From a virus, in the IMG/VR virus record IMGVR_UViG_3300036830_000277, positions 1 to 60,531 of that record: 60,531 bases of DNA. One strand, 5' to 3'. The notes under the pieces were generated by a model, which ran no database searches, was not told where the DNA came from, and saw nothing but the letters and a program-made list of their open reading frames with translations. Shown here in pieces: positions 5,023 through 49,515 of this stretch. How positions within the stretch are numbered: position 1 is the stretch's first letter; each line of letters begins with the position of its first letter. Made by a program: the position numbers and the translations under genes.

Positions 5023-5199
5023 ATGGGAAATCCTACAGCAACAGTGATTCTGGCGAACGGGAAGACGGCGACGCTCGACGCCAGGCTCGCCGATCAGTTG
5101 GTCAAGATGGGCAAAGCGTCCTACCCGGAATCCTCACAGGAACAGGCCGAGACGAAGCCGCGGCGCTATCGCCGTCGCGACATGCAGGCCGAGAGCTGA
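5023..5199 (+). CDS. small head-module protein, unknown function
   Basis: A 58-aa protein starting at ATG 5023 behind GAGGGG. It reads MGNPTATVILANGKTATLDA and ends in a basic stretch RRYRRRD before a short acidic tail. Its stop overlaps the portal start (ATGA). Its place between capsid and portal, and its size, suggest a minor head or assembly protein; no family was recognised. Confidence 0.7.
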   Translation: MGNPTATVILANGKTATLDARLADQLVKMGKASYPESSQEQAETKPRRYRRRDMQAES

Positions 5200-6596
5200 T
5201 GCGGCTCTTCGGGCTGCAGATTCAACGCGCGCAACCGGTCGAGCGGGCGGTGCAGATATCGCCGGTGACGCCGTGGCGCGGGGGATGGTTTCCGCTCATT
5301 CGTGAGCGTGAGCCCGGCGCCTGGCAGCGGAACCGTGAGCACCGAGTCGACAACGTCATCTCGCACCATGCGGTTTACGCGTGTGTTAGCCTGATCGCAT
5401 CGGATATCGGGAAGCTGCGCCTGAAGCTGATGAAGGAAGACGACAAGAACGTTTGGTCCGAGGTCGACCACCGCAACCTGTCGCCGGTCCTGCTCAAGCC
5501 GAACGGGTTCCAGAACTACATCCAGTTCAAGGAATGGTGGGCGACGTCGAAGCTGCTGTACGGCAATACCTACGCCCTCAAGGAGCGGGACAACGCCGGC
5601 GTCATTCGCGCGCTCTACTTGCTCGATCCCTCGAGGGTCACCGTGCTGGTGGCCACCGACGGCACGGTCTTCTATCGACTCAGCCAGGACAATCTCAGCG
5701 GCGTCGAAGAGGCCTCGATCACGGTCCCGGCGTCAGAGATCATCCACGACCGGATGAACTGCCTGTTCCATCCGCTGGTGGGGATCTCACCGATCTATGC
5801 CTGCGGCACGGCGGCGGACATGGGGCTCAACATCCAGGACAACTCCACCAAGTTTTTCGGCAAGGGGAGCAACCCGAGCGGGATCCTGTCGGGCGATTCG
5901 ATTATCTCGGAGTCTTCGGCCAAGGATCTGGCGGACCGGTGGAATGAGGGATTCAGCGGTGGCAACAGCGGCCGCGTTGCCGTCCTGGGCAGCGGCCTGC
6001 AGTTCACCGCGCTTCGCATGAGCGCTGTCGACTCGCAGCTGATCGATCAGCTGAAATGGTCGGCGGAAACCGTCTGCTCTGCGTTTCACGTGCCACCGTT
6101 CAAGGTCGGTGTCGGCGACACGCCGACATATCAGAACGCCGAAACGCTGAACCAGATCTACTACTCGGACTGCTTGCAGAGTCATATCGAATCGTTCGAA
6201 GCCGTGATGAACGACGGCCTCGAACTCGACGACAAGCGCGCCAATCTCTGCATCGAGCTCGATCTGGACGCGCTGCTTCGGATGGACAGCGCTACCCAGA
6301 TGGAGACGCTCGCGAAAGGCGTCGCAGGTGCCATCCTGACGCCAAACGAGGCGCGCATGAAGCTCGACCTGAAGCCGCTCACCGGTGGCGATACGGCCTA
6401 CATGCAGCAGCAGAACTTCTCGCTCAGCGCCCTCGACGCCAGGGATCGCAGCAACCCGGCGCCATCGAGCATGGATCGTCGGACGCCGCCGGCCCCCGCT
6501 CCCGCGCCGTCCGCTGAGCCGACGGACGACATTCCGGCCAAGGCGATCGACGACTTCCTCGCGACCCTCGATGCGGAACTGCTGGTGGCCAAGTGA
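5199..6596 (+). CDS. portal protein
   Basis: A 465-aa HK97-family portal, the dodecameric ring at the packaging vertex. Typical features are HAVYACVSLIASDIGKL near residue 60, LLKPNGFQN with the following FKEWWATSKLLYGN, HDRMNCLFHPLVGISPIYA, and AETLNQIYYSDCLQ in the C-terminal half. The tail is Pro- and Ala-rich (PPAPAPAPSAEP), ending in a helix. It starts in an ATGA overlap with the 58-aa gene, and its stop overlaps the GTG of the collagen-like gene. Gene order capsid-portal is reversed relative to HK97, where portal precedes protease and capsid. Confidence 0.93.
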   Translation: MRLFGLQIQRAQPVERAVQISPVTPWRGGWFPLIREREPGAWQRNREHRVDNVISHHAVYACVSLIASDIGKLRLKLMKEDDKNVWSEVDHRNLSPVLLKPNGFQNYIQFKEWWATSKLLYGNTYALKERDNAGVIRALYLLDPSRVTVLVATDGTVFYRLSQDNLSGVEEASITVPASEIIHDRMNCLFHPLVGISPIYACGTAADMGLNIQDNSTKFFGKGSNPSGILSGDSIISESSAKDLADRWNEGFSGGNSGRVAVLGSGLQFTALRMSAVDSQLIDQLKWSAETVCSAFHVPPFKVGVGDTPTYQNAETLNQIYYSDCLQSHIESFEAVMNDGLELDDKRANLCIELDLDALLRMDSATQMETLAKGVAGAILTPNEARMKLDLKPLTGGDTAYMQQQNFSLSALDARDRSNPAPSSMDRRTPPAPAPAPSAEPTDDIPAKAIDDFLATLDAELLVAK

Positions 6597-7762
6597 ACGG
6601 CGAAGAGCTGGGGCGCCGCACGGCCGAGACCTTCCGGCGCGCGGTTGCCGCCGCAATCGATCCGATCCGGAAGGAACTCGCTGAGCTTCGCGAGAAGGCC
6701 GCCACGTTCCTGACGGCTGATTCGCTGCCAGACCCAGAAATGCTGATTGCGAAGGCGGCGCAGCGCGCCCGCGAGAATCTTCCGGAGCCCCGCGACGGCA
6801 AGGACGCTGATCCCGCTGTGATCGGGAAGATGGTGGACGACGCAGTCGCACTGGCCGTTGAGGCCATTCCCGCGCCCGCCGTTCAATCGGAGGACGATCT
6901 CGCGCGGCTCGTCTCGGCCGCGGTCGATACCGCGATCGCCAAGATCCCCGCGGCGCGCGACGGAAAGGACGTCGACCCAGCGCTGGTCGCCGAGATCATT
7001 ACTCGGCGCCTCGATGCGGCGATCGCTGATCTCCCGAGGCCTGCGGACGGTCGGAGCGTCACGATCGATGACGTCGCGCCGATGATCGCGTCAGAGGTCG
7101 CGAAAGCCGCAGGTCAGATCCGCGTGCCGCAGGACGGCAAGGACGCCGATCCGGCGCTGGTCCGGTCGCTGGTCGAGGAAGCGGTCGAGCGAGCTGTCGC
7201 CGAAATCCCGCTGCCGAAGGACGGCGCCAGCGTCACGGCCGACGACGTCGCGCCGATCGTGGACGCACAGGTGCGCCGCGCGATCGCCGCGTTGCCGAAG
7301 CCAGCCGAGGCCCGTGGCATCGCATCCGCCACGCTCACGTCCGACGGTACCCTGCTCCTTCGCATGACGGACGGCGAGGATCTCGACGTCGGGCGAGTGG
7401 TCGGCAAGGATGCCGACACGATGGCGATTCTGCGGCAGGTGACGGAGTCGGTTCCGAAGCCCCGCGACGGCCGCGACGGTGTGGCCACCAGGGACGAGCT
7501 GCAGTTGCTGATCCGAGACGGGATCGCCGCGGCGCTGGATGGCGCGGTGGAAGCCGCCGTAGCCAAGGCGTTCGAGAAGCACCCGAAGATCGAGTATCGC
7601 AATGTCTGGGAGCCGGGGATCTACAGCAAGGGCAACGTCGTGACCTTCGGCGGGTGTGGGTGGATCTGCCTCGTCGACTCGACCGAGCAGAAGCCAGGCA
7701 CCACCAAGGACTGGCAGCTCTTCGTGAAGAAGGGCCGCGACGGGCGGGACCGCGATCGATGA
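6593..7762 (+). CDS. collagen-like head fibre or decoration protein with binding module
   Basis: A 389-aa protein built of about six repeats starting L/I-P-x-P-x-D-G (for example PEPRDGKDADPA, PAARDGKDVDPA, PKPRDGRDGV), alternating with amphipathic helices rich in EAVERAVAEI-type sequence. The C-terminal 50 residues (NVWEPGIYSKGNVV, then CGWICLV and DWQLF) resemble a carbohydrate-binding type module seen at the ends of phage fibres. The last residues are GRDGRDRDR. It sits between portal and the glycan cassette and overlaps the LicD-like gene by four bases, so it is a candidate glycan acceptor (inference). It is probably an elongated trimeric fibre; attachment to head or neck is not shown. 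Confidence 0.7.
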   Translation: MNGEELGRRTAETFRRAVAAAIDPIRKELAELREKAATFLTADSLPDPEMLIAKAAQRARENLPEPRDGKDADPAVIGKMVDDAVALAVEAIPAPAVQSEDDLARLVSAAVDTAIAKIPAARDGKDVDPALVAEIITRRLDAAIADLPRPADGRSVTIDDVAPMIASEVAKAAGQIRVPQDGKDADPALVRSLVEEAVERAVAEIPLPKDGASVTADDVAPIVDAQVRRAIAALPKPAEARGIASATLTSDGTLLLRMTDGEDLDVGRVVGKDADTMAILRQVTESVPKPRDGRDGVATRDELQLLIRDGIAAALDGAVEAAVAKAFEKHPKIEYRNVWEPGIYSKGNVVTFGGCGWICLVDSTEQKPGTTKDWQLFVKKGRDGRDRDR

Positions 7763-8439
7763 GCGCGACAGGGCTCGCCGCCTCGACCCGTTCCGTCCCG
7801 TGCACCAGAGAGACGCAGCGCTGCGCCGACGCGACGCGCTACGACGCGGTCTTGCCGGACTGCTGCCGCGGACATCTCCGGCGCATGGTCGCGGATATCA
7901 TGCGGGTGCTCGATTCGCGGAACATCGTGTGGTGGGCCGACTACGGCACGCTGCTGGGCGCCGTGCGCAACCCGCTGACCACTGCGGCGGACTATCCGTG
8001 GCTCACGCTGCCCGCGGCGCCGATTCCTCCCGGCATCATTCCCCACGACAAGGACGCCGATTTCGGCATCCTTGGTGTCGGCTTCGATGTGCTCAAGAAT
8101 CTCCAGCAATTGCTGCAGCGCGAGGGATACGACGCGCAGCTGCGCCAGCTCGGTCCGTCACTGAAGGTTCGGCTCTCGTCGTCCAACAAGACCAACGTCG
8201 ACCTCTTCGTGTGGCGCGAGCGGTCCGATGGCATGCTGCTGCGGAACCACTACATCGCCGTCGACGCCTTCAAGGGCCGTGAATTCCCGAAGACCGAGCT
8301 CTTCCCGCTGTCGACGGTGGAATGGGAGGGCCTGGCGCTGCCAGCCCCGCGCGATCCGGCTGCGTTCTGCGAATTCCGATACGGGTCGACGTGGCGCACC
8401 CCCGTCGCAGCGAACCACGACGGTCGGCGGCGCCCTTGA
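7759..8439 (+). CDS. LicD-family phosphotransferase-like protein
   Basis: A 226-aa protein of the LicD/fukutin-related nucleotidyltransferase fold. WWADYGTLLGAVRN followed by IPHDKDADFGI matches the family pattern of G-T-L-L-G-A-x-R and a D-D/D-x-D metal site. LicD proteins transfer phosphocholine or similar groups from CDP donors to glycans (family knowledge). The ATG at 7759 overlaps the previous stop (ATGA), which settles it against an upstream start at 7654. The last gene of the cassette is a cytidylyltransferase, which could supply a CDP-linked donor. Confidence 0.8.
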   Translation: MSATGLAASTRSVPCTRETQRCADATRYDAVLPDCCRGHLRRMVADIMRVLDSRNIVWWADYGTLLGAVRNPLTTAADYPWLTLPAAPIPPGIIPHDKDADFGILGVGFDVLKNLQQLLQREGYDAQLRQLGPSLKVRLSSSNKTNVDLFVWRERSDGMLLRNHYIAVDAFKGREFPKTELFPLSTVEWEGLALPAPRDPAAFCEFRYGSTWRTPVAANHDGRRRP

Positions 8440-9449
8440 GAATCTTCCTCACCTGCCCCACACTCACTCCGCACGGCGGCATTCGCGTCATCCTGGAATG
8501 GGCGAACCGCCTGTCGCAGCGGGGCCACTTGATCCACCTCCGAGTCGACGACCGTCGGGACTCCGACTGGTTCGCGATCGATCGATCGGTGCGCATCGAG
8601 CGGACCGATGAGGCCCTACAGGCGTGCGATGTGCTGGTGGTCACGTCGCCGCACGCCGTCGACTACCTCGAAGTCGACGAGGCGCCGGCGCGGCGCTTCG
8701 CGTTCATGCAAATGGCGGAGCATCTGTTCAGGCCTGGCGACCTCCGCTGGCATCGGCAGTGCGAGCGGTTCTACACCACGCGCGCACCGCTGATCCTGAT
8801 CAGCGGCTGGAATCGCGACCTCGTGAGGGATTTTGGTCGGCACGGACCGGTGCATTACGTCCGGAATGCGGTCAACCTGGACGACTTCCCGATCGAGACG
8901 CCGCAGAAGGACGGCCGGACGGTGCTGATCGAAGGCTGGTGGCCGGACAACCCGACGAAGGACTCGGACCGCATCGGTGCCAAGGTCGCGGCGAGGCTGG
9001 CGCGCGAAGGGTATCGCATCACGGCGTACGGGCGGAATCCACTGCCGCAGCGGGATCCGTTCCGGCGCGTCCCGATGCGGTATATCGCCAATCCGACGCT
9101 GAAACAGCTCAACGCACTCTATCGCGAAGCTGCCATCCTGATCAAGGCGTCGCACGATGACGCGCGGGCATGCGCTCCGATGGAGGCGATGACCAAGGGT
9201 ACCGTGACAGCGCGAGCGATCGAGCGAGGCGACGACGACCTGGTGCACGACGCGAACTGCATGCGTGCACCGTATGACGAGATCGCGCTCTATCTGACAG
9301 CCAAGCAATTACTCGACGACGTCGACCTGCGCCAGCGTCTCGCGGCATCAGGTCGCGATTACGTCGCGTCGACGACATGGGATGACTGCCTCGACGAGAT
9401 CGAAGGCATCCTCAACGCCGAGGAGCTGGTACTGGAGCTCTCGGCATGA
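8436..9449 (+). CDS. GT-B type glycosyltransferase
   Basis: A 337-aa glycosyltransferase-like protein. The N-terminus (M)RIFLTCPTLTPHGGIRVILEWA is the nucleotide-sugar Rossmann entry with the common GG(I/V)xR pattern. The second half shows VHYVRNAVNLDDFPIE, then KASHDDARACAPMEAMTKGT, a family 4/1-like acidic signature. The start chosen is TTG 8436, which overlaps the LicD stop (TTGA) and places the first strand correctly; an upstream ATG would add 38 unrelated residues. It probably transfers a sugar onto a glycan or phage protein; donor and acceptor cannot be read from the sequence. Confidence 0.8.
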   Translation: MRIFLTCPTLTPHGGIRVILEWANRLSQRGHLIHLRVDDRRDSDWFAIDRSVRIERTDEALQACDVLVVTSPHAVDYLEVDEAPARRFAFMQMAEHLFRPGDLRWHRQCERFYTTRAPLILISGWNRDLVRDFGRHGPVHYVRNAVNLDDFPIETPQKDGRTVLIEGWWPDNPTKDSDRIGAKVAARLAREGYRITAYGRNPLPQRDPFRRVPMRYIANPTLKQLNALYREAAILIKASHDDARACAPMEAMTKGTVTARAIERGDDDLVHDANCMRAPYDEIALYLTAKQLLDDVDLRQRLAASGRDYVASTTWDDCLDEIEGILNAEELVLELSA

Positions 9450-10084
9450 TTCCGATCGCGATCGTCGCCGTCGAATACCTCGAACCGGGATACCAGGCCG
9501 TACGCGAGGCGATCGATGGCACCGGCGTGCCGGCGATCTACATCGATCGCCGCGGGGTCGGCAGTCTCGCGGCTGCATATAACAGCGGCGCCGCGCAGGC
9601 GGAGGCGCTCGAGCCGGAGTTCCTCTGGTTCATGTCGAACGTTGGCTTCGGTCCAACACTGCTCCCTCGATTGCACGACCAGCTGGCTGCGCGGTCCGAC
9701 TACGCGGCCATCCATCCTGCCTTCGCGAGCGATCACGTCGCCTGTCAGCCGGACGGCTCGGACGAGGTGAAGCCGGTGGCGTTTGTCGAATTCACGTGCC
9801 CGCTGGTTCGGGCCAGCGTCTTTCGCGCGCACCCGCTGGACGAGCGGATGCCGTACTGGGGTCATGACTTGGATTGGGGCTTTCGCGTCCGTGCCGCGCA
9901 CTGGAAGGTCGGCATCGATCATGGCGCGCCGGCGATCGAGCACACCTACATCCGCAACGAACGGCAGTCGCATCCGATCACCCGTCGACGCCACCAACTG
10001 CGGAAACAGTCGAACGCCGCGACGACCAGCGTCCTCGTGGACACATACGGCGCCGGGTGGCGCGGGAAGCTCGAATGGCGCTGA
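9446..10084 (+). CDS. GT-A/family 2-like glycosyltransferase, short
   Basis: A 212-aa protein resembling a compact family 2 glycosyltransferase. It starts with strand-like IPIAIVAVEY, has SLAAAYNSGAAQA and FLWFMSNVGF where a family 2 donor site would be, and ends with MPYWGHDLDWGFRVRAAHWKVGID, the usual E/D-D-x-x-W acceptor region. It is shorter than most members. It overlaps both neighbours by four and ten bases. Assignment rests on the order of these motifs, not on a search. Confidence 0.65.
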   Translation: MIPIAIVAVEYLEPGYQAVREAIDGTGVPAIYIDRRGVGSLAAAYNSGAAQAEALEPEFLWFMSNVGFGPTLLPRLHDQLAARSDYAAIHPAFASDHVACQPDGSDEVKPVAFVEFTCPLVRASVFRAHPLDERMPYWGHDLDWGFRVRAAHWKVGIDHGAPAIEHTYIRNERQSHPITRRRHQLRKQSNAATTSVLVDTYGAGWRGKLEWR

Positions 10085-10719
10085 ACGCGATGGACGCCGA
10101 TGGCGTCACCCATGAGGTGGGATTCTGGAAGGGGTTCGTTCGCACGCCGCGGTTCCTCGAGGGCTGGCTGTCCCAGACGCCGACGCCGGAGCTGCGGTCG
10201 ATCGTGCGGGATTTCCTCCTGGCTCGGCCGGCGGCGGATGTGCTGGATGTCGGCTCCGGTGTCGTGAGCCTGCTGACGGGAACCGTGCCGGCCGATCGAC
10301 TCGTGGCGGCTGACCCGCTGAGCGGATTCTACGCCGAGATCTTCGACTACCGGGCGCACGACCAGACACCACCGCTGCCGATCGCGGCCGAGGATCTCGG
10401 GTTTGATGCGGCGTTCGATATCGTGCATATGAGCAACGCGCTGGATCACAGTCAGGACCCGGCCATGGCGCTCGATCGACTCCGCGCAGCGGCCCGGCCT
10501 GGTGGCTGGGTGATCGTGCAGGGGTTCGAAGACGAGTCCACCGCGATGGGTGGCGCCGGCATGCATCAATGGGATATCAGGCTCGACGGAAGCCAGCTCG
10601 TACTCGTCCAGCCCTCGTCAGGATCCCGCAGGGAGCTCGGCGCCGCGGACGAACACCATCTCGTCGTGCTGCCTGACGGACGGCGCTGGTTCATCTGGAT
10701 CCAGCAGGTACCGGCGTGA
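10075..10719 (+). CDS. SAM-dependent methyltransferase, class I
   Basis: A 214-aa methyltransferase-like protein. Motif I is DVLDVGSGVVSLLTG, followed by an acidic strand end (LVAADPLSGFYAEIF), FDIVHMSNALDHSQDP (motif IV region) and RPGGWVIVQGFE (motif VI). It probably methylates a sugar or its carrier, given its place between glycosyltransferases. The ATG at 10075 gives a ten-base overlap with the previous gene; ATG 10090 is an alternative. Confidence 0.8.
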   Translation: MALNAMDADGVTHEVGFWKGFVRTPRFLEGWLSQTPTPELRSIVRDFLLARPAADVLDVGSGVVSLLTGTVPADRLVAADPLSGFYAEIFDYRAHDQTPPLPIAAEDLGFDAAFDIVHMSNALDHSQDPAMALDRLRAAARPGGWVIVQGFEDESTAMGGAGMHQWDIRLDGSQLVLVQPSSGSRRELGAADEHHLVVLPDGRRWFIWIQQVPA

Positions 10720-11150
10720 ACGCCCAGCAGATCTATCTCGACTGCGACGGCGTGCTGACGGACGGCACGCTGACGATCGATCACCGCGGCGAGAAGCTCT
10801 TCAAGCGGTTCCACACGCGGGACGTGCGCGCGATTCGCGAACTGGTGGCACGCGGATATACCGTGACGCTAGTCAGCGCGGATGATTGGGCGGGCCTGCC
10901 GCTCTTCGCCGAGAAGGTCGGCGCCGACGTGCTCATCCTGCGCGACAAGGGATCGTTGCCGCAGCCGTATATCGCCGTTGGCGATGACGCCTGGGATGTC
11001 TCGATGCTGGCGCGCGCCGAGCGCGCCTTCTGTCCGATCGATGCCGACGTATCGGTACTGGAGATCCCCAAGATCACGACGCTGTCCACGAAGGGCGGCG
11101 CCGGCGTCGTCGCCGAATTGGTGCGAGCACTGGTCGGTGCCGATGGCTAG
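10716..11150 (+). CDS. KdsC-like HAD phosphatase
   Basis: A 144-aa HAD enzyme of the small, capless KdsC type. Motif I is YLDCDGVLTDG (nucleophile D8, D10), motif II is in LVSADDWAG, and DKG precedes IAVGDDAWDVSML (motif IV). KdsC-type enzymes remove phosphate from 8- or 9-phosphorylated keto sugars such as Kdo or sialic acids (family knowledge). In the cassette it may free an acidic sugar or recycle a phosphorylated intermediate. The GTG start overlaps the methyltransferase stop. Confidence 0.8.
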   Translation: MNAQQIYLDCDGVLTDGTLTIDHRGEKLFKRFHTRDVRAIRELVARGYTVTLVSADDWAGLPLFAEKVGADVLILRDKGSLPQPYIAVGDDAWDVSMLARAERAFCPIDADVSVLEIPKITTLSTKGGAGVVAELVRALVGADG

Positions 11151-12135
11151 GATCGCGGTACTCGGACGCCGGCTGTCTGGCGTCGGCTCTGGCGCCCATC
11201 GGACGCATCTCGAGGTGGCCGGATTCCTCGCCGATCGCGGTCATCGGGTGACGTATGCTGCGCTCAGCGGCGGCTGGGAGACGCGATTCGGGGACCCGAT
11301 CGGCCTCGGCGCCGAGAGCGTACGTCGCGCGGTGGCCGGTGCCGACTGGGTGATGGTGCGCGACGAGACTCGGGTCGGAGAGCTACTGCCCTTTGTCGGC
11401 GAGCAGCGGCTGATGTTCTCGTGCCACTCGCCAGCCGGGCATCCGGCGTCGCTCGGCGTCCGGCTCCCGGCGCGCAGCGTGCTGGTCTGGGTGTCGACGG
11501 CGCTACAGCAGCAGGCGACGCACCGCTTCGGCGTCTACGACGGCGAGGCCGTGATCATCGAGGGCTGTCCGATCGATCAGGTGCGATTCCGCGTGTCGCC
11601 AGGCCGCAACGTGTCGTTGGTGAACCTCTCCCTCCGGAAGGGTGGCGGGGTGTTCTGGGCGCTCGCCGAGCGGATGCCAGACCTCTCATTCCTCGGCGTC
11701 ACCGGCTGGGGTAAGCAGATCCTGCGCGGTCGGCCGCCGGCGAACGTGCGCATCATGCCGCGCGTCACCGATTCGCGGGAGTTCTACCGAGAGACGCGGG
11801 TGCTGCTGCTACCGAGCGCCGAAACGTCGACGGTGGAGTGCAGCGAGTTGCCGCACTGGGGCGAGGCGTGGAACCGCGTGGGCGTCGAGGCCGCGATGAG
11901 CGGCATTCCGGCGATCGCGCACCCGGCGGTCGGGATCCGGGCATCGATGGGCGACACGCCGGTCTACGTCGATCGAGACGATCTCGACGGATGGGAGCGG
12001 GCGCTCCGACGGTTCGATGATCGCGAGTACTGGAACCTGCGATCGCACTATGCCACCAACCTGGGCGATCACGTCTCTGCCCGATGCGCCGACATCGTCC
12101 GGGCGTACGACGAGCTGATCAGGATGGCGGCATGA
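11143..12135 (+). CDS. GT-B type glycosyltransferase
   Basis: A 330-aa glycosyltransferase-like protein. The N-terminus RIAVLGRRLSGVGSGAHRTH is a nucleotide-binding entry. VSLVNLSLRKGGGVF, FLGVTGWGKQ and RVLLLPSAE follow, then WGEAWNRVGVEAAMSGIPAIAH, the classic E-x7-E-like GT-B donor site with a G-x-P loop. The ATG at 11143 overlaps the phosphatase by eight bases; the much longer upstream frame runs through that gene and was rejected. Likely a sugar transferase acting with the two upstream transferases. Confidence 0.85.
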   Translation: MARIAVLGRRLSGVGSGAHRTHLEVAGFLADRGHRVTYAALSGGWETRFGDPIGLGAESVRRAVAGADWVMVRDETRVGELLPFVGEQRLMFSCHSPAGHPASLGVRLPARSVLVWVSTALQQQATHRFGVYDGEAVIIEGCPIDQVRFRVSPGRNVSLVNLSLRKGGGVFWALAERMPDLSFLGVTGWGKQILRGRPPANVRIMPRVTDSREFYRETRVLLLPSAETSTVECSELPHWGEAWNRVGVEAAMSGIPAIAHPAVGIRASMGDTPVYVDRDDLDGWERALRRFDDREYWNLRSHYATNLGDHVSARCADIVRAYDELIRMAA

Positions 12136-12533
12136 CCCAGCGCATCGTGATGACGTCGGGCGTCTTCGACCTGCTCCACCGGGGCCATCTCAACCTGCTG
12201 CGCGCGAGCCGCGCTCTCGGTGATAAGCTGATCGTCGGCGTCGTCAGCGACGATGGCGCCGCAGCATACAAGCGACCGCCGATCCAGGACGAGCGGACGC
12301 GACTCGAGGTGATCCGGTCGCTCGTCGGCGTCGATTGCGCCCTGCTCCAATCGACCACTGACCCGACGCCGCTGGTCGAGCTGGTGCGGCCCGATGTCTT
12401 CACCCACGGCGACGACTGGGAGCGCCTCCTGCGGGGTCAGGAGACCTTGGAGCGGCTCGGCGTCGCCTTCGTCCGCCTGCCTTACACTCCCGGCATCTCC
12501 ACCAGCATGATCCGCGAACGGATCCACGCATGA
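12132..12533 (+). CDS. cytidylyltransferase (TagD/HldE-C type)
   Basis: A 133-aa nucleotidyltransferase that activates a small phosphate or sugar phosphate with a nucleotide. The ATP/CTP site is HRGH at residues 16-19 in the context SGVFDLLHRGH, LIVGVVSDD follows, and the C-terminus has GISTSMI, the family's second signature. Length matches glycerol-3-phosphate cytidylyltransferases and the HldE C-terminal domain. Together with the LicD-like transferase it suggests a CDP-donor pathway (inference). It overlaps both neighbours by four bases, including the head-tail connector, so the cassette is transcribed with structural genes. Confidence 0.85.
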   Translation: MTQRIVMTSGVFDLLHRGHLNLLRASRALGDKLIVGVVSDDGAAAYKRPPIQDERTRLEVIRSLVGVDCALLQSTTDPTPLVELVRPDVFTHGDDWERLLRGQETLERLGVAFVRLPYTPGISTSMIRERIHA

Positions 12534-13126
12534 TCGGCATTCTCAGGCTGCAATCCATCATCCCATCGCTCTCTCAGCTGAGTCCCGATGCCGTCATGGA
12601 CCTCGAGCGCCGCGCGGTCGCGTTCATCGAGAGCCAGACCGATCGGTATTTCGGCGTGCCGGAGTCGACGGTCGAATACCTGCAGGGAACCGACGGCCAC
12701 GCGCTTCGCCTCGCCGGCATCGCCGTCGAGCAGGACTCCGATGATGAGGTCACCGTCACGGAACGGTGCTGTCGCGGGACCGCGGCAGTTTCGCTGTCGT
12801 CGTCCGCCTTCGACGTGCGGCAGAATCGCTACGAGACGGTGCTGGTGCGCATCGATGGGCGGCGGTGGCGGCGCGGGACCGAATATGCGGCCACGTACTC
12901 GCGCGGCTACCGGCAGGACTGCGGTCCGGCCGACATCGAGCAGGCGATCATCGATCTGATCGCGCTTCGGGTCAACCTCCGCGGCAAGGAGGGGCTGTCG
13001 GGGGAAACGATCGGCGGCTACAGCTGGACGAAGTCCGCCACGTACAACTTCACCGATGGCGAGCTGCGCGCGGTCCCAGGACTGCTGTCGACGATCGGCG
13101 CCTGGAAGCGGCCGGTGATGGCGTGA
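12530..13126 (+). CDS. head-tail connector, gp6-like
   Basis: A 198-aa protein with the pattern of head-tail adaptors: an N-terminal helical part (VMDLERRAVAFIESQTDRYFG), a beta insertion with GTDGHALRLAGI, and a C-terminal helical segment IEQAIIDLIALRVNLRGKEG followed by IGGYSWTKS. It would bind under the portal. Four-base overlap with the cytidylyltransferase shows the normal head gene order resuming after the glycan cassette. Confidence 0.7.
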   Translation: MIGILRLQSIIPSLSQLSPDAVMDLERRAVAFIESQTDRYFGVPESTVEYLQGTDGHALRLAGIAVEQDSDDEVTVTERCCRGTAAVSLSSSAFDVRQNRYETVLVRIDGRRWRRGTEYAATYSRGYRQDCGPADIEQAIIDLIALRVNLRGKEGLSGETIGGYSWTKSATYNFTDGELRAVPGLLSTIGAWKRPVMA

Positions 13127-40837: not shown

Positions 40838-41786
40838 GACCGTCAAGGCGCCGCGCATTGTGCGCGAGCTCCCCGCAGGGCTCCGGCTCACCACGGGCGC
40901 CCACCCCGACCATAAAGGGTTCTGCTTCAACGAGGCGATCGCCTTCGTCGCCGGTGAGAAATGGAGCGACGCGCCCGCGTGCGTGAGCCCGGTGATTCGG
41001 CGCTTCGGGATGGGATTGAACGACCGATGGCCCGAGGATGACAAGCAGCTCCTCATTCCCTTCATCATTCCAGCGATCGGGACGCGGACGACCGACGCCG
41101 ACGAGCTCACGCGGAAGTTCATGGCGCTCGACTGGGCCTACCGCACGGCAGCTCCGGCCGCATTCCGTCTCCTCAAGCTCGACGAGCAGGCGGAACGGCT
41201 CGCCACGATCGCACCGATCGTCGATCAGGCGACGTGGGATCTGGCGTGGCCGGTGATGCGCCAGCTGCGCGACAAGGCGTGGGAGCGCCGCGCAGCGGCG
41301 CTCAAAAAAATCCGCGCAATCGTGAAACCGGCGGCGGTGGCGGCGGAGGCGGTGGCGGCGGTGGCGGCGGAGGCGGCGGCGGCGGCGGCGGTGGCGGCGG
41401 AGGCGGTGGCGGCGGTGGCGGCGGAGGCGGTGGCGGTGGCGGCGGTGGCGGCGGAGGCGGTGGCGGCGGAGGTGGCGGCGATTTCGCGAATTCTCGGCGA
41501 TGAATCCGCCGAGAATTCGCTCCTGCGTCGCGAGCTCGTCGAGATCATCCGCAAGGGCACGGCATCACTCCCGAAGAATCCGAGCTGGGGCCAAGCGTGG
41601 GACGCGGTCTACCGGCCGGTCCGCCGCAAGATTCGCGAGCTGATCGGCACGCCCGGTGTCCTCGGGCCCGCGTACGACGCGCACCGCGTCTGGGTGCGCG
41701 ACTCCGCGCTCGAGCTCCTCGATCGGATGATCGCCGTCGGTCGCGTCGAGCCGACGATCGCCATCAAGAAGGGCGCCCAGGCGTGA
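40830..41786 (+). CDS. early protein with Ala/Val/Glu tandem repeat
   Basis: A 318-aa protein in three parts. Residues 1-165 are a conserved-looking domain (HPDHKGFCFNEAIAFVAGEKW, VIRRFGMGLNDRWPEDD). Residues about 167-218 are low complexity, repeats such as VAAEAVAA. The rest is a helical domain (LLRRELVEIIRKGTASLP, YRPVRRKIRELI). The repeat probably forms a long helix linking the two. ATG 40830 overlaps the previous gene by eight bases. Confidence 0.65.
   Translation: MSKTVKAPRIVRELPAGLRLTTGAHPDHKGFCFNEAIAFVAGEKWSDAPACVSPVIRRFGMGLNDRWPEDDKQLLIPFIIPAIGTRTTDADELTRKFMALDWAYRTAAPAAFRLLKLDEQAERLATIAPIVDQATWDLAWPVMRQLRDKAWERRAAALKKIRAIVKPAAVAAEAVAAVAAEAAAAAAVAAEAVAAVAAEAVAVAAVAAEAVAAEVAAISRILGDESAENSLLRRELVEIIRKGTASLPKNPSWGQAWDAVYRPVRRKIRELIGTPGVLGPAYDAHRVWVRDSALELLDRMIAVGRVEPTIAIKKGAQA
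41328..41483 (+). repeat. GGC-type tandem repeat in coding sequence
   Basis: About 155 bases of near-perfect GGCGGN units. In the gene's frame they read Ala, Val and Glu; in a second frame poly-Gly and in the minus strand Ala/Thr/Ser runs. Unit number is likely to change by slippage; six-base steps keep the frame. Confidence 0.85.
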
Positions 41787-43540
41787 GTCGTTCGCCTGTC
41801 GTCCGCCTGGGACTGGATCCCGACGAGCTGATCATCGACAGCTTCGCCGGCGGCGGTGGCGCGTCGGAGGGAATCCGTCTCGCGCTCGGCCGGGATCCCG
41901 ACGTCGCGATCAACCACGACGCCGAAGCGATCGCGCTCCACAAGGCGAACCACCCCGGCACGAAGCACTACTGCGAGAACGTCTGGAAGGTCGACCCAGA
42001 GGAAGCCGCTGACGGCCGGCCGATCGGGCTGATGTGGCTGTCACCGGACTGCAAGCACTTCAGCAAGGCGAAGGGCGGCAAGCCCGTTGAGAAGAAGATT
42101 CGCGGCCTGGCGTGGCTCGCGGTCCGCTGGGCGTCGTTGCCGGAGGGCAAGCGACCGCGCTGCATCTTCCTCGAAAACGTCGAGGAGTTTCAGGGGTGGG
42201 GGCCGGTGCTCGCCGATGGGAAGCCGTGCCCGGTCCGGAAGGGGAAGACGTTCCGCGCGTTCGTGCGGAAGCTCGTGCGGCTCGGCTATCGAGTGGAATG
42301 GCGCGAGATGCGCGCCTGTGATTTCGGCGCGCCGACGATCCGCAAGCGCCTTTTCCTGATCGCTCGATGCGACGGTCAGCCGATCGTCTGGCCGCAGGCA
42401 ACCCACGGGAAGCACCACGCGCTGCCATGGCGCACCGCGGCGGAGTGCATCGACTGGTCGATTCCCTGCCCGTCGATCTTCGACCGCAAGAAGCCGCTGG
42501 CCCCGAACACGCTCCGGCGCATTGCCCGCGGACTCGATCGGTTCGTGATTAACTCGCCGAAGCCCTTCATCGTCAACATGGCGCACGGCGGGAAGATCGA
42601 GGACATCGATCGCCCCATCAGCACGATCGCGACCGAGAAGGGCGGTTGCAGGGCGTTGACCGCCCCTGTCCTCGCACCAGTGCGCCATGCCGACGACAAG
42701 CGTCGGCAACGTGTCGACGACCCGATGCCGACGATCACTGCGTCGCAGCGCGGGGAGATCGCGCTCGCCGGTGCCACGCTCGTCCAGACCGGTTACGGCG
42801 AGCGTGAGGGGCAGGCGCCGCGCGCGCTTGATCCGGAGAAGCCGCTGGGGACGATCGTCGGATCCGAAAAGCACGGGATCGCCGCCGCGTCACTGGTGCA
42901 GTACCACTCGGCCCGGCGACCGGGCGACGATCGCGTCGCGGATCTCGCCGATCCGCTGCGGACGCAATCGACCGAGAACCGGTTCGGTCTCGTGGCGGCG
43001 TTCCTTGCCAAGCATTACAGCGAAACCCACGACACTGTCCAGGCGGCTTCGCTGTTCGCGCCCACTCCCACGGTCACCGCGGTCGACCACAACGCGCTCG
43101 TCGCTGCGTCCCTGACGCAGTTCAACGGCACCAGCGACGGTCAACCGGCCGACAAGCCGCTCCCGTCGATCACGGCGCAGGGCTGGAAGTTCGCCGAGGT
43201 GCGGGCGTTCCTTGTGGCGTACTACGGGAACGAGAAGGACGGTGGGACGCTCTTCGATCCGATGCGCACCGTCACGTCGAAGGACCGGCTTGGGCTCGTG
43301 GCGGTCGAGGGGATCGACTACGCGATCGCGGACATCGGGATGCGGATGCTGGCGCCGCGCGAGCTCTACAATGCCCAGGGCTTCCGGCCAGACTACCGGA
43401 TCGACATCGAGTTCAACGGCAAGCCGCTGACGAAGACCGCGCAGGTGCGCATGGTTGGCAACAGCGTCTGCCCCCCGATGGCCGCGGCGCTCATTCGCGC
43501 GAACTTCGCCACCGAGCAGCGCGCCGAGGTCGCCGCGTGA
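41783..43540 (+). CDS. C5 cytosine DNA methyltransferase with repeated target domain
   Basis: A 585-aa enzyme that adds a methyl group to C5 of cytosine in DNA. Motif I is DSFAGGGGASEG (19-30), motif IV SPDCKHFSKAKGG (catalytic Cys89; the common PPCQ is replaced by SPDCK), motif VI LENV (E130) and motif VIII RKRLFLIAR. The long target region (about 255-530) is seven diverged repeats, each with D/x-P-x-x-T-I/V-T followed by a strand ALVAASLVQY. The C-terminus carries the N-x-V motif (MVGNSVCPP). It may protect phage DNA from restriction. The GTG start overlaps the previous stop. Confidence 0.85.
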   Translation: MSRSPVVRLGLDPDELIIDSFAGGGGASEGIRLALGRDPDVAINHDAEAIALHKANHPGTKHYCENVWKVDPEEAADGRPIGLMWLSPDCKHFSKAKGGKPVEKKIRGLAWLAVRWASLPEGKRPRCIFLENVEEFQGWGPVLADGKPCPVRKGKTFRAFVRKLVRLGYRVEWREMRACDFGAPTIRKRLFLIARCDGQPIVWPQATHGKHHALPWRTAAECIDWSIPCPSIFDRKKPLAPNTLRRIARGLDRFVINSPKPFIVNMAHGGKIEDIDRPISTIATEKGGCRALTAPVLAPVRHADDKRRQRVDDPMPTITASQRGEIALAGATLVQTGYGEREGQAPRALDPEKPLGTIVGSEKHGIAAASLVQYHSARRPGDDRVADLADPLRTQSTENRFGLVAAFLAKHYSETHDTVQAASLFAPTPTVTAVDHNALVAASLTQFNGTSDGQPADKPLPSITAQGWKFAEVRAFLVAYYGNEKDGGTLFDPMRTVTSKDRLGLVAVEGIDYAIADIGMRMLAPRELYNAQGFRPDYRIDIEFNGKPLTKTAQVRMVGNSVCPPMAAALIRANFATEQRAEVAA

Positions 43541-44406: not shown

Positions 44407-44866
44407 TGAACTGCCCGACGCGCTGATTCTGGATCAGCTAAACCGGCTGGTCGCGTGTAACTGCCTCGGTCGCAAATCCGACGCGGAAAAGGGCACGCTC
44501 GTTGTCGAGATTCAGCGCGCGACGAGGGGATGGAGCCCGACGGAGCTGGTCACTGCCACGACGTCGCTCATCCAATCCGGTGAAAAGTTCGCCGGCATCG
44601 GATCGATCAAGCTCCATCGCGCTGCGCGGGAAACGCCGCAGAAGGCGCAGGGGTCGTTCGACGTCTGCAATGCCTGCGGGCGCCATCGGTACTACGCCGG
44701 ATTCGAATTCCCCGACGGTACGGTAAAACCGCGGCTTCGCTGCGACTGCCCACACGCCGGCGCGGGATGGGAGACCGAGAAGGCAAAGGCGTACGTCGAG
44801 CAGGACAAGGTGCTTCTCGCCGCTGGATTCGGCACGCCGCCGGATCGCGAGGAGTTCAGCGCGTGA
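44396..44866 (+). CDS. zinc-binding protein, replication module
   Basis: A 156-aa protein with a helical N-terminus and one zinc site (CNACGRHRYYAG, then LRCDCPH). It may help load a helicase or regulate the following helicase fusion; this is inferred from position only. ATG 44396 overlaps the previous gene by 11 bases; GTG 44378 is an alternative. Confidence 0.6.
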   Translation: MPRDELPDALILDQLNRLVACNCLGRKSDAEKGTLVVEIQRATRGWSPTELVTATTSLIQSGEKFAGIGSIKLHRAARETPQKAQGSFDVCNACGRHRYYAGFEFPDGTVKPRLRCDCPHAGAGWETEKAKAYVEQDKVLLAAGFGTPPDREEFSA

Positions 44867-47361
44867 ATCAGGCGTACCTCGACTTCCTCCGCGCCAAGGC
44901 TGTGGCCGCGCCGCAGTTCGGTCGCGGCGTTGAGCCCGGTCAGGTGAACGCCCTGCTCAAGGGCCACCAGGGCGCGATCGTCGAGTGGGCTGTTGGCGGC
45001 GGGCGTCGGGCGATCTTCGCGTCGTTCGGGCTCGGGAAGACGATCATGCAACTGGAGACGGTTCGACTCACACTGAATCCCGACGAGCGCGGCCTCATCA
45101 TCTGCCCGCTCGGCGTGCGCGCCGAATTCGCGAAGGACGCCGCGATGCTCGGCGTGGCCACGACGTTCGTTCGCTCCTCTGACCACGTTGCCGGTCCGGG
45201 CATCTACATCACGAACTACGAGAGCGTGCGCGAGGGAAAGATCGACCCCGCCCTCTTCACGGCGATCAGCTTGGATGAAGCCGCGATCCTTCGCGGCATG
45301 GGCGGGACGAAGACGTTCCGCGAGTTCATGCGGCTCTTCGAGCAGACACCATTCCGGTTCGTGGCCACGGCCACGCCGAGCCCCAACGACTACATCGAGT
45401 TCCTCTCCTACGCCGCGTTCCTCGGCATCATGGACATCGGCGAGGCCAAGACTCGGTTCTTCCAGCGGAACAGCGAGAAGGCCGACGAGCTCACCATCCT
45501 CCCCCACAAGGAGGACGAGTTCTGGGCGTGGGTTGCCTCATGGGCGGTGGTGATCCTCCGGCCGTCGGATCTCGGCTTCTCGGACGACGGGTACGAGCTG
45601 CCCGCGCTCGACGTGCACTGGCACTGCGTCACGCCGGCGGTCGATGATCACGGGACCGAGTACGACGGCCAGGGAAAGCTGCTGCGCGATGCGTCGCTCG
45701 GGGTACAGCAGGCCGCGGCCGAGAAGCGGCTGTCCCTTCCCGCTCGCGTCGCTGAGGTCGGGCGGCTCATCGATGCGCGGCCGGGCGACCACGTCATCGT
45801 CTGGCACGACCTCGAGTCGGAGCGTCACGCCATCACGTCATCGATCAATGGGATCGAAGCCGTCTACGGCTCACAAGATCTCGACGAGCGGGAGGACCTC
45901 GTCGCGGCATTCGCCGAGGGCCGTCTCGCTCGCCTCGCCGCCAAGCCCGTCATGCTCGGCGCCGGGTGCAACCTCCAGCGGCATTGCCACTGGGCGATCT
46001 TCGCCGGGATCGGCTTCAAATTCCGCGACTTCATCCAGGCGATCCATCGGATCCACCGGTTCCTCCAGCCACATCAGGTCACGATTGACATCATCCACTC
46101 CGACGCCGAGGCGGAGATCGTACGAGACCTGCAGGCGAAATGGCGCCGGCACGATGCGATGATGGAGCGGATGTCGGCACTGATGCGGGAATGCGGACTC
46201 GGCGGAGAACTGGCCCGGGCGCGACTGCAGCGCTCGATCGGGTGCGAACGAAAGGAAGAACGCGGCGAGCAGTTCGTGGCCGTGCTGAATGATTGCGTCG
46301 ACGAGACAACCGCGATGCCAGAGGCCTCGGTCGACCTGATCATCACATCGATCCCATTCGGCACCCAGTACGAATACACGCCGTCCTACAACGACTTCGG
46401 CCACACCGACGACGACGAGCATTTCTTCCTGCAGATGGATTTCCTCTCGCCGCAGCTACTCCGAGTACTCCAGCCGGGGCGAGTGATGGCGGTACACGTC
46501 AAGGACCGGATCCGGCCCGGAAGCCTCGACGGGCTCGGGTTCCAGACTGCCAGCCCGTTCCACGCCGAGTGCATTCTCCACTACCGGCGCCACGGGTTCG
46601 CGTACCTCGGCATGATCACGGTCGTCACCGACGTGGTGCGGGAGAACAACCAGACCTACCGGCTCGGCTACTCCGAACAGTGCAAGGACGGATCCCGGAT
46701 GGGCGTCGGGATGCCGGAATACGTCCTGCTCTTCCGGAAGCCACCGACCGATGCCAGCAATGGTTACGCGGATCACCGGGTCATGAAATCGAAGTCGGAG
46801 TACTCGCGCGCCCGCTGGCAGGTCGACGCGCACGCGCTCTGGCGCTCGAGTGGCGAACGACTGATCGGCGAAGAAGAGCTCGTCGGCCTCCCGGCCGAGC
46901 AGGTCTTCAAGCGGTACCGGGCCATGTCCTTCGCCACCGTCTACGACCACGAGCGGCACATCGCGATCGGCGAGGCGCTCGAGCGGGCGAAGCAGCTGCC
47001 GCCCGGCTTCATGCTCCTGCAGCCGCAAAGCCACGACGAGGACGTCTGGTCGGACGTGACTCGGATGCGCACGCTGAACGGCACGCAGGAGGCAGCGGGG
47101 CGCGAGAAGCATCTCTGCCCGCTCCAGTTCGACATCGTAGACCGGTTGATCGCCCGGTATTCCAATCCGGGCGAGCTGGTGATGGATCCATTCGGCGGCC
47201 TGATGACAGTCCCGCTCCGCGCGATCGAGACGGGACGGCGAGGCCTCGGGATCGAACTGGCGCCGCCGTACTTCGCCGATGGCGTGCAGTATCTACGCGC
47301 TGCGGAGGAGAAGATCGCGATGCCAACCCTCTTCGACTTCCTTGACGAGGCTGCGGCATGA
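44863..47361 (+). CDS. SNF2-like helicase fused to N4/N6 DNA methyltransferase
   Basis: An 832-aa fusion. Residues 1-450 are a superfamily 2 helicase: Walker A FASFGLGKT (about 50-58), SLDEAAIL (DEAA in place of DEAH, about 137), ATATPSPND (motif III), and GAGCNLQRHCHW with QAIHRIHRF (motifs V and VI). Residues about 475-832 are a beta-class amino-methyltransferase: SVDLIITSIPFGTQYEYTPS (motif IV; TSIPF where TSPPY is usual) and MDPFGGLMTVPLRAIETGRRG with GIELAPPYF (motif I). Combined helicase and modification suggests methylation linked to DNA tracking. GTG 44863 overlaps the previous gene by four bases. Confidence 0.85.
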   Translation: MNQAYLDFLRAKAVAAPQFGRGVEPGQVNALLKGHQGAIVEWAVGGGRRAIFASFGLGKTIMQLETVRLTLNPDERGLIICPLGVRAEFAKDAAMLGVATTFVRSSDHVAGPGIYITNYESVREGKIDPALFTAISLDEAAILRGMGGTKTFREFMRLFEQTPFRFVATATPSPNDYIEFLSYAAFLGIMDIGEAKTRFFQRNSEKADELTILPHKEDEFWAWVASWAVVILRPSDLGFSDDGYELPALDVHWHCVTPAVDDHGTEYDGQGKLLRDASLGVQQAAAEKRLSLPARVAEVGRLIDARPGDHVIVWHDLESERHAITSSINGIEAVYGSQDLDEREDLVAAFAEGRLARLAAKPVMLGAGCNLQRHCHWAIFAGIGFKFRDFIQAIHRIHRFLQPHQVTIDIIHSDAEAEIVRDLQAKWRRHDAMMERMSALMRECGLGGELARARLQRSIGCERKEERGEQFVAVLNDCVDETTAMPEASVDLIITSIPFGTQYEYTPSYNDFGHTDDDEHFFLQMDFLSPQLLRVLQPGRVMAVHVKDRIRPGSLDGLGFQTASPFHAECILHYRRHGFAYLGMITVVTDVVRENNQTYRLGYSEQCKDGSRMGVGMPEYVLLFRKPPTDASNGYADHRVMKSKSEYSRARWQVDAHALWRSSGERLIGEEELVGLPAEQVFKRYRAMSFATVYDHERHIAIGEALERAKQLPPGFMLLQPQSHDEDVWSDVTRMRTLNGTQEAAGREKHLCPLQFDIVDRLIARYSNPGELVMDPFGGLMTVPLRAIETGRRGLGIELAPPYFADGVQYLRAAEEKIAMPTLFDFLDEAAA

Positions 47362-47705: not shown

Positions 47706-48031
47706 CGCTCGAAGAGATTCTGGCTTCGGAGCGGGAAGACGCCGCCGTCCTGCGCGCGCGCGGCCTCGCCGATCGCGCTGCTGACATCGAACGCGTCTGC
47801 GACCGCGTGCAGGAATCGCTCGGCAACTATCTTCGCTGGCTCTCGGAGACTGAAGCGATTCTCTGGTCTGGTCGCAGCGCGAAGTACCTCCGCGATCGGT
47901 TCGCCGGATGGGTCGCCCAGGGTGATGCGAGGAAGGTCGGCCGGAACCGGCAGTATCGCGCCAGCGCGATCCCGCGCAACGTCGACGTCGCCGGGCTGCG
48001 GCAACGGGCGCGACAGGAGGCAGCGGCGTGA
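47699..48031 (+). CDS. small protein before integrase, possible excisionase-like
   Basis: A 110-aa helical protein. It ends in SETEAILWSGRSAKYLRDRFAGW and a basic QGDARKVGRNRQYRASAIPR, resembling helix-turn-helix proteins upstream of phage integrases. ATG 47699 overlaps the LexA-like gene by seven bases; its stop overlaps the integrase GTG. Confidence 0.55.
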   Translation: MLTLEEILASEREDAAVLRARGLADRAADIERVCDRVQESLGNYLRWLSETEAILWSGRSAKYLRDRFAGWVAQGDARKVGRNRQYRASAIPRNVDVAGLRQRARQEAAA

Positions 48032-49515
48032 CCCCGAACCGTTCGCGGATCGATGAGTGGGGGAAGAAGGGCGAATCGCTCGTGGCCTGTTACCACGAGC
48101 CGAAGCGCCGCCGCTTCATCGTGGAATGGTATCCGACGAGCGGGAAACCGCGCCGGCAGACCTTTCCGTACGCCCCGGGCCAGCAGGCGCAGGCGCGACG
48201 CGAGGCCAAGGTGTTCGGCGCCGAGATGGCGCTCAGTCGCGGTGTCATCGTGCACCCCGACGTGCCGGAAACCACCCACGCGATGTATGAGCGGTTCGTG
48301 AAGGCGATGGAGTCGGCCTGGCGCCCAGCGACGCGCACGTCGAATAGTTACCGATGGAAGCTGTGGGAGGCGTTCTACAAGCCGCAGACCGAGCCGAACC
48401 TGGTGACCGAGGACATCCTCGATGATTTCCTCGCACGGCTGCGGGTCACGAAGACCTCAGCGTACCAGATCCGGCAGGTGTTCGCGCTGCTGCGCGCGGT
48501 GTACCGGCTCGGCGTCCGGCGGAAATGGCTCGTCGCCGCGGCGCCGCTCACCTACGAGCTGCGGCTCGGCAAGGACGAGGTCGCCAACGATCCTGAGGAG
48601 TACCATCCGTCGGAGTGGACCGCGCTGCTCAACCATATCCCGGACGACGTCCACGGCTGGCGGCTCCGCGTGGCCATCCTACTGGCCGGGGCGCAGGGTG
48701 CGCGGATCAACTCGATCACGCACCTGCGCTGGTCGGACGTCGATGCCGAGTCTAACGAGATCCGCTGGCCGGCGGCGTTCATGAAGCAGGGTCGGGAATT
48801 CGCGCAGCCGATGACGCCGGTCGCGGTCGAGGCATTGAACGTCGCCTGGCGTTGGCGGCGGCAACTCGGATACACCGGCGACTGGGTGCTCCCCGTCGTC
48901 CGATTCGGGACCGTCGACGCGCCGGTCAAGTACCAGACCCTCCATACCGCGTTGGTCAAAGCCGAGACGCGCGCGGGATTGACGCACAAGGGACTGCGAG
49001 CATTTCACGGCTTGCGGCGGATGGCGGCCGAGAACGTCTACGGCCAGAGCAACGACATGCTGATGGCCGCGGCGTGGATCGGCGACCGGGATGTGAAGCA
49101 GTTGCGGAGCTACTTGAAGCGGCGGGACGAGCGACTGGACGGGGCAGCGAAAGCGGCGGGAGAAACATCGTCGGCGATGGTGCACCATACCCACAACCAT
49201 ACCCAAGAATCGCCGAGTGCCCGCAAACCCAGTCAGGACAAGAGCCACTGGTCGGAATTGAACCGACGACCGCAACAATCTGAACCACCTGCCAAACCAA
49301 CTGAAACCGGCATATATCAAGGGGTCGACGGCTCCGAAACCCACCTTTCGGAATCCCGAACCGCCCCCGAATCGCTCGTTTCACCATACCCGGAACCATA
49401 CCCAGACCCGGCGTCCACCTCGGATGCCGAGGGGTCTGACCGCACCTCAAATCCGCACCTGAATTCGACGACGGCAACAGTTCCGAATCGGGCCGCGGGC
49501 GAGGCATCCGAATGA
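48028..49515 (+). CDS. int: tyrosine recombinase (integrase)
   Basis: A 495-aa integrase catalysing site-specific insertion of phage DNA. Catalytic residues are R226 (GARINSITHLRW), H327 and R330 (FHGLRRMAAE), the AAAWIGD region and nucleophile Y362 (LRSYLKR). The N-terminal 170 residues include a SAM-like core-binding domain (LDDFLARLRVTKTSAYQI). About 130 residues follow the Tyr, more than usual; residues about 405-421 are translated from a tRNA T-arm-like sequence. The gene runs rightward, and the ASCH gene overlaps its stop. Confidence 0.9.
   Translation: MTPNRSRIDEWGKKGESLVACYHEPKRRRFIVEWYPTSGKPRRQTFPYAPGQQAQARREAKVFGAEMALSRGVIVHPDVPETTHAMYERFVKAMESAWRPATRTSNSYRWKLWEAFYKPQTEPNLVTEDILDDFLARLRVTKTSAYQIRQVFALLRAVYRLGVRRKWLVAAAPLTYELRLGKDEVANDPEEYHPSEWTALLNHIPDDVHGWRLRVAILLAGAQGARINSITHLRWSDVDAESNEIRWPAAFMKQGREFAQPMTPVAVEALNVAWRWRRQLGYTGDWVLPVVRFGTVDAPVKYQTLHTALVKAETRAGLTHKGLRAFHGLRRMAAENVYGQSNDMLMAAAWIGDRDVKQLRSYLKRRDERLDGAAKAAGETSSAMVHHTHNHTQESPSARKPSQDKSHWSELNRRPQQSEPPAKPTETGIYQGVDGSETHLSESRTAPESLVSPYPEPYPDPASTSDAEGSDRTSNPHLNSTTATVPNRAAGEASE
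49242..49289 (-). other. attP: candidate attP core with tRNA T-arm sequence
   Basis: On the minus strand 49267-49251 reads GTCGG TTCAATT CCGAC, a perfect 5-bp T-stem with a seven-base loop that fits the GGTTCRANNCC box. The next bases, CAGTGGC, could be the 3' side of an acceptor stem. No 5' tRNA half is present. Phage attachment cores often copy tRNA 3' ends, and the resulting peptide here (SELNRRP) is a known by-product of that. The exact ends of the core are not known. Confidence 0.6.

Follow-up and report, generated by a model that had tools for sequence, protein, structure and literature searches.

A predicted FKRP-type LicD transferase and a cytidylyltransferase-like enzyme as the constant pair of a phage head-gene cassette

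FKRP and FKTN are transferases of ribitol- or glycerol-phosphate that use cytidine diphosphate (CDP) donors, and PCYT2 also makes CDP-glycerol, whose glycerol phosphate both can transfer (PMC8587909). A LicD of Mycoplasma transfers phosphocholine or phosphoethanolamine (PMC11982090). In phages, virion glycosylation is known from few cases, the precedent being the capsid and tail tube glycans of mycobacteriophages, as related in accounts citing Freeman 2023 (PMC12619734, PMC11256854). How does a phage cassette of seven overlapping genes compare with these systems? The one discussed here occupies positions 7759 to 12533 of IMG/VR virus contig IMGVR_UViG_3300036830_000277, 60,531 bases long with 65% guanine-cytosine (GC), which is called the window below. 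A first-pass annotation, made from the letters alone, had read it as a glycan cassette with a CDP-type donor pathway inside a run of head genes. This article centers on two of its products, a LicD transferase resembling human FKRP and a cytidylyltransferase-like enzyme (CT).

The LicD and CT pair

The LicD gene (7759..8439, plus strand) encodes a protein reaching 29.4 bits against PF04991, above the gathering cut-off of 22.6 (its relatives score 33-54 bits), and carries the GTLLGA box and an Asp-rich metal motif (DYGTLLGAVR...PHDKDAD). When a profile of 12 phage LicDs was compared with the PDB, human FKRP was the single match (E 1e-24). The invariant phage residues C15, C22, C35 and C36 align to the C4 zinc finger of FKRP (C289, C296, C317, C318), and the invariant R21 aligns to Arg295, which binds the acceptor phosphate. 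Likewise D97, D99, D101 and D148, invariant across 12 aligned phage sequences, align to the catalytic D360, D362, D364 and D416 (FKRP residue roles from PMC6965139). The AlphaFold model of LicD has a predicted local distance difference test (pLDDT) score of 86.9, and its best Foldseek matches are FKRP structures (E 9e-14, template modelling score 0.65-0.69 on the query). The match covers half of FKRP, the stem domain being missing from the phage protein (226 amino acids vs 495). Together with the Pfam score, this fold match bears out the LicD identity proposed at first pass. By sequence and modelled structure, the phage LicD is thus of FKRP type in fold, zinc finger, Arg295 and catalytic aspartates, polyol-phosphate transfer being its predicted activity.

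A search of a viral structure library with the same model gave mostly giant-virus LicDs. No C4 motif stands upstream of the GTLLG box in the bacterial LicDs recovered, nor in the distant phage LicDs. Among 299 + 149 bacterial genomes of two groups, Actinobacteria lying outside the sample, no match reached the zinc finger, all of them starting after it; the scan of bacterial contigs for FKRP-type LicDs used patterns drawn from the phage sequences. A cellular source of the FKRP-type LicD may therefore exist outside that sample. In two loci, L105 and L146, the same cassette encodes two LicDs, one with the zinc finger and one lacking it, which recalls the FKRP/fukutin pair. It was also observed that in L103:9827-10714, L105, L146:7773-9494 and L150 the LicD bears an N-terminal domain like small proteins encoded right after the capsid gene (e.g. 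MGFRHHGQAIRPGRVFEASVAEAEVLM).

CT, the product of the final cassette gene (12132..12533, plus strand), matches CTP_transf_like (PF01467) at 70.7 bits against a cut-off of 21 (E 1.8e-19), and HxGH (HRGH) and ISTS-type (GISTS) motifs are found in alignment A3. The profile made from this alignment retrieves from the PDB PCYT2 (108 bits over two domains), the Fom1 CyTase (102), HldC (79) and TagD (70), which places CT in the Fom1 CyTase/PCYT2/TagD/HldE superfamily. The Fom1 CyTase makes cytidine monophosphate (CMP)-hydroxyethylphosphonate (PMC6697681). Against the NCBIfam models, CT scores 59.8 bits for TagD (TIGR01518, cut-off 165.4) and 100.7 bits for RfaE domain II/HldE (TIGR02199, cut-off 181.5). 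The nucleotidyltransferase fold implied by the first-pass annotation is therefore upheld, while the names TagD and HldE, like that of KdsC for the phosphatase described below, are approximate, since equivalog cut-offs are not reached.

Viral contigs were scanned with the LicD and CT alignments. FKRP-type LicDs are carried by 19 distinct viral contigs, window included, and lie among structural genes. Both LicD and CT are present in every contig long enough to show both (13/13: the window and 12 others). The six LicD contigs without CT stop at LicD or at most 1 kb from it, and the single CT contig without LicD begins at CT. With a CT profile trained on LicD-linked members, L117, L118, L119, L120 and L124 were retrieved by CT alone, and LicD is present in all five; among less similar viral CTs, co-occurrence with LicD falls to 3/47 and 0/18. 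A more distant phage LicD forms the N-terminal part of a single 299-amino-acid open reading frame (L137:5467-6366) whose C-terminal part is a cytidylyltransferase domain. Because of this co-occurrence and this fused protein, one enzyme would make an activated group and the other move it. The make-and-transfer coupling foreseen at first pass stands on the same two grounds, the nucleotide specificity of a CDP donor remaining a prediction. The fusion is found among structural-looking genes of an 82-kb low-GC phage contig, where PHROGs gives no match for the neighbours.

LicD opens the cassettes and CT closes nearly all of them, L146 having a second LicD after CT. The cassette comes directly after the major capsid protein in, for example, L103, L119, L120, L124, L144, L146, L149 and L150, after the portal plus a fibre gene in the window, L099, L100, L101 and L118, and after the connector in L094 and L102. 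Labels of major capsid protein, portal, terminase and adaptor in the loci examined were confirmed by PHROGs/Pfam. Between the two ends, the middle genes include GT2-family transferases, a GT29 sialyltransferase-like enzyme, a weak pyruvyl transferase, a TupA-like ATP-grasp protein, Methyltransf_24 and a second LicD. In L124 the order is minimal (major capsid protein-LicD-CT-connector), and its LicD has the zinc-finger motif, reading CTADWERC...CC. From these comparisons, LicD and CT are the only constant members, the glycosyltransferases, methyltransferase and phosphatase varying between phages. Neither this constancy nor the FKRP type of LicD figured in the first-pass annotation. As a side observation, L104:2927-5716, located between CT and the connector, encodes a fibre-like protein of 930 amino acids that carries a weak CBM5/12 module, a counterpart of the fibre gene beside the cassette in the window.

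A second seven-gene phage, gene layout and flanks

All seven genes recur in the same order in a second phage, G001 (contig 3300043538_000030, 48,939 bases), which is cut open within the cassette and is probably circular, at 48.8 kb, since it has a 127-base terminal repeat. LicD, glycosyltransferase 1 (GT1), glycosyltransferase 2 (GT2), the methyltransferase (MT), the HAD phosphatase, glycosyltransferase 3 (GT3) and CT are respectively 59, 72, 73, 78, 74, 70 and 79% identical to their counterparts in the window. The large terminase subunit (TerL) is 70-77% identical and the adaptor-to-tail genes 37-64%, as against 23% for the portal, and G001 has no relative of the window's capsid-protease fusion or fibre-like protein. 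On sequence identity, the cassette is thus kept across a change of head module. Because the order is retained despite unrelated capsid and portal, the seven-gene combination is a functional unit.

In the window, the cassette runs from the end of the fibre-like gene (7762) to the start of the head-tail adaptor (12530), with overlaps, both flanks included, of 4, 4, 4, 10, 4, 8, 4 and 4 bases. The first-pass description of seven overlapping genes between these neighbours is confirmed, all being intact, as is their location within a virion operon, given the overlaps with structural genes on both sides. GC at third codon positions is 0.80-0.86 in the cassette genes, like that of neighbouring genes, and substitutions relative to G001 fall mainly at the third codon position (for example 0.21/0.15/0.45 in GT1). 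These two properties, and seven ordered G001 orthologues at 59-79% amino acid identity, argue that the frames are real. The search for the same gene order in other phages that the first-pass annotation had called for was answered by G001.

The middle genes, all on the plus strand, are of uneven character. GT1 (8436..9449, TTG start) is weakly GT4-like, matching NCBIfam GT4 models at E 8.6e-6 and 4e-5 and Pfam Glyco_transf_4 at 0.003. GT2 (9446..10084, 212 amino acids) is putatively GT-A/GT2-like: its sole match is NCBIfam HfsG (E 1.6e-6, weak), with none in Pfam, and the glycosyltransferase identity rests on this profile match because the structure model, built from two sequences, is uninformative (pLDDT 35). 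GT3 (11143..12135), also GT4-like, belongs to phrog_26352 (E 5e-39) and matches Glyco_trans_1_4 at E 2.5e-5, just under the cut-off. Of the three glycosyltransferases first proposed, GT1 and GT3 are therefore retained as GT4-like and GT2 is a weaker candidate. Two copies of a GT3-family enzyme are encoded in the capsid-tail interval, without LicD or CT, in L012:16432-18468 (Streptomyces phage TurkishDelight gp20), L005 and L008, and phrog_26352 seems to form a second and independent family of glycosyltransferases linked to virions.

MT (10075..10719) is a class I S-adenosylmethionine methyltransferase, as first suggested (Methyltransf_23, 36.9 bits against a cut-off of 27, E 3.9e-9). The phosphatase (10716..11150) belongs to the HAD superfamily (Hydrolase_3, 25.1 against 20.9 bits) and has the motifs DCDGVLTDG and GDDAWD. 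It resembles KdsC in the PDB (E 1e-8), but its TIGR01670 score of 42.6 bits (E 5.8e-11) stays below the cut-off of 106.95, so that the first-pass label holds for the superfamily and not for the KdsC equivalog. Among annotated LicD-CT cassettes this gene is seen in the window and G001 only, and it is taken as accessory. No membrane-spanning stretch was found in the cassette proteins (19-residue hydropathy ≤1.31), nor any flippase or polymerase in the cassette.

Upstream lie the portal gene (5199..6596, plus; Pfam Phage_portal E 1.4e-88) and the fibre-like gene (6593..7762, plus), whose product has DGK/DG-rich repeats. The label "collagen-like" first given to the latter holds in part: the window protein has no Pfam Collagen match and its best PHROG families are labelled portal protein (E 1.6e-43), while its homologue L099:2880-3746 matches Collagen at E 5e-23 and homologues with true Gly-X-Y collagen repeats exist. 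Downstream comes the head-tail adaptor (12530..13126, plus; phrog_442 E 1.3e-10). PHROGs identified the capsid-protease fusion and terminase of the window; the major tail protein and tape measure, for which it gave no match, are labelled by position only. TerL is nearest to that of Gordonia and Mycobacterium phages (45-46% identity), which is only a hint of the host. The phage is probably temperate because it encodes a tyrosine integrase (48028-49515), with a complete tRNA-Thr gene (50925-50996) 1.4 kb downstream as a possible attachment site. C5-cytosine and N6/N4 DNA methylase domains are encoded at 41597-43540 and 44767-47361.

Proposed mechanism and rival explanations

We consider it rather probable that the cassette is a virion-modification module in which a CT-LicD relay places a phospho-group onto a glycan of a virion protein. 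CT would join cytidine triphosphate (CTP) to a small phosphate compound, giving a CDP-linked donor, from which the FKRP-type LicD would move the phospho-group onto the acceptor glycan. The host would supply this compound, most likely glycerol-3-phosphate or else a similar polyol- or ethanolamine-phosphate; since no other substrate is as widely available as glycerol-3-phosphate, CDP-glycerol is the parsimonious guess. The acceptor glycan would be built in the cytoplasm by two or three glycosyltransferases, directly on a virion protein of the same operon (candidates are tail tube, capsid, adaptor and fibre), and may be trimmed or capped by the methyltransferase and HAD phosphatase. The enzyme families, active-site residues, LicD-CT coupling and conserved place among structural genes are supported by the comparisons above; from these we infer CTP use, the group moved, the order of steps, the acceptor and a benefit such as surface shielding, particle stability or adsorption. 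Modification of virion proteins in the cytoplasm is favoured because of the virion-operon position and because the cassette has no membrane segments, flippase or polymerase; for the latter reason lipid-linked envelope glycans are disfavoured.

Several points weigh against this relay. CT outscores its TagD result on RfaE domain II, the model of an ATP-using heptose enzyme, and for that reason a nucleoside diphosphate (NDP)-sugar product, even ATP use, is possible. The Arg of the TagD RTEGIST motif is replaced by Tyr in CT, as in Fom1. With no glycosyltransferase in the minimal L124 cassette, a protein side chain or a glycan of the host may serve as acceptor. Envelope glycans are what LicDs modify in bacteria, and since the phage has a tyrosine integrase, lysogenic conversion is possible. 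A phosphonate donor, raised by the similarity to Fom1, was rejected, no phosphoenolpyruvate mutase being found among the annotated phage proteins, in an annotation that is not exhaustive.

What then would be modified? The main rival on the target is that the cassette alters the surface of the host cell, in lysogens or towards the end of infection, as superinfection exclusion or lysogenic conversion. In bacteria, LicDs have teichoic acids and lipopolysaccharide as targets, such a role was proposed for the licD/ispD pair of Flandersviridae phages (PMC8008677), and the window encodes an integrase. The genes, however, are coupled to head genes through overlaps of 4-10 bases and do not belong to a lysogeny or early module, phages whose heads differ have them at this same place, and the cassette encodes no membrane protein, flippase or polymerase; we regard a host-surface target as unlikely. 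Modification of the adjacent fibre or collagen-like protein as a head fibre, a target already envisaged at first pass, is less likely still. Collagen-like proteins can carry glycans, and next to the cassette of the window, L099, L100, L101, L118 and L104 there is a fibre-like gene that has collagen or CBM5/12-like segments. Yet G001 keeps the seven genes without a fibre homologue, its capsid and portal being unrelated, and in L102, L124 and L094 no collagen-like gene precedes LicD. The fibre-like neighbour is thus not a required target, and neither it nor the window capsid is favoured as the sole one; what is left is a glycan of the host, an acceptor of a generic kind, or the adaptor and tail-side proteins, which are better conserved.

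The remaining alternatives concern the chemistry. CT could be an HldE-like heptose-1-phosphate nucleotidyltransferase which, with the HAD phosphatase, provides NDP-heptose or another NDP-sugar to the glycosyltransferases, LicD acting separately. RfaE domain II is indeed the top-scoring NCBIfam model for CT, heptose pathways include a HAD phosphatase step before the nucleotidyltransferase, and HldE-like genes occur in cyanophages. But CT stays under the cut-off of that model, in the profile search HldC ranks below PCYT2 and Fom1, which are CTP enzymes, and the HAD gene is absent from the annotated middles of other LicD-CT cassettes, in which LicD is always there. This doubtful reading was not adopted, the HAD gene lying outside the constant core. 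That the glycosyltransferases and their partners hypermodify phage DNA against restriction is very improbable: the phage has DNA methylases, but the cassette sits in head genes and contains no base hydroxymethylase or DNA-modification partner. We know of no role of LicD/FKRP or CT on DNA. Some phage glycosyltransferases do modify DNA, according to an account citing Pyle 2024 (PMC12619734).

To return to the virion-protein relay, its boldest form is that this phage group coats virion proteins with glycans capped by polyol-phosphate, similar to teichoic acid or to the glycans of dystroglycan, by means of its own FKRP-type transferase and donor synthase. Such a system would be the first of FKRP type in prokaryotes, and its virion-coat chemistry one not described before, a proposal that we advance tentatively. 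If rich in phosphate or charged, the coat could influence how stable the phage is, how it adsorbs and how antibodies recognise it, and the LicD-CT pair could serve to add phosphodiesters onto glycans.

Comparison with known systems

The first-pass annotation had found the combination unusual inside head genes. Phage LicD and virion glycosylation have each been reported before, and, as far as found, the pair within head genes appears new: neither an FKRP-type LicD with CT as a constant unit among head genes nor a LicD-CDP relay on virions was found in the open-licence papers searched. A DNA search of isolate phages gave no relative of the cassette, and tblastn gave none for LicD or GT1, just partial weak LicD matches.

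The gut phages of the Flandersviridae likewise have a licD beside a cytidylyltransferase gene, ispD (PMC8008677). Their pair lies in the replication module, has an IspD-type enzyme and was proposed to target teichoic acid, whereas that of the window lies among head genes and has a CTP_transf_like enzyme. In mycobacteriophage Che8 (Freeman et al. 2023), phage glycosyltransferases are likewise thought to modify virion proteins, and a LicD/CT relay is not reported in the accounts citing that work; in the related phage Maravista they are encoded near the 3′ genome end (PMC11256854). TurkishDelight gp20 resembles the cassette GT3, with two copies fused between capsid and tail genes, and no LicD, CT, HAD or methyltransferase cassette was found in that phage. 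The bacterial LicC-LicD and Fom1/PntC systems (PMC6697681) activate a phospho- or phosphono-alcohol with CTP and have LicD-type transferases close by. Of the two solved proteins most closely related to the phage CT, one is the Fom1 CyTase domain. LicC and PntC, by contrast, fall into a different nucleotidyltransferase family, the targets of these systems are cell surfaces or small molecules, and neither phosphoenolpyruvate mutase nor choline genes were seen among the annotated phage proteins.

The closest parallel to the phage LicD is human FKRP, an enzyme linked to muscular dystrophy, in the polyol-phosphate pathway of alpha-dystroglycan, with which it has in common the fold, the C4 zinc finger, Arg295 and Asp360/362/364/416. 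There too a cytidylyltransferase (the donor makers are PCYT2/CRPPA) supplies the CDP donor, as predicted for CT, but the phage enzyme is stemless and encoded with virion genes. Because the zinc-finger loop has been described as conserved in FKRP orthologues only (PMC6965139), this compact phage LicD has a bearing on how the fold arose and could serve as a model enzyme that is easy to work with.

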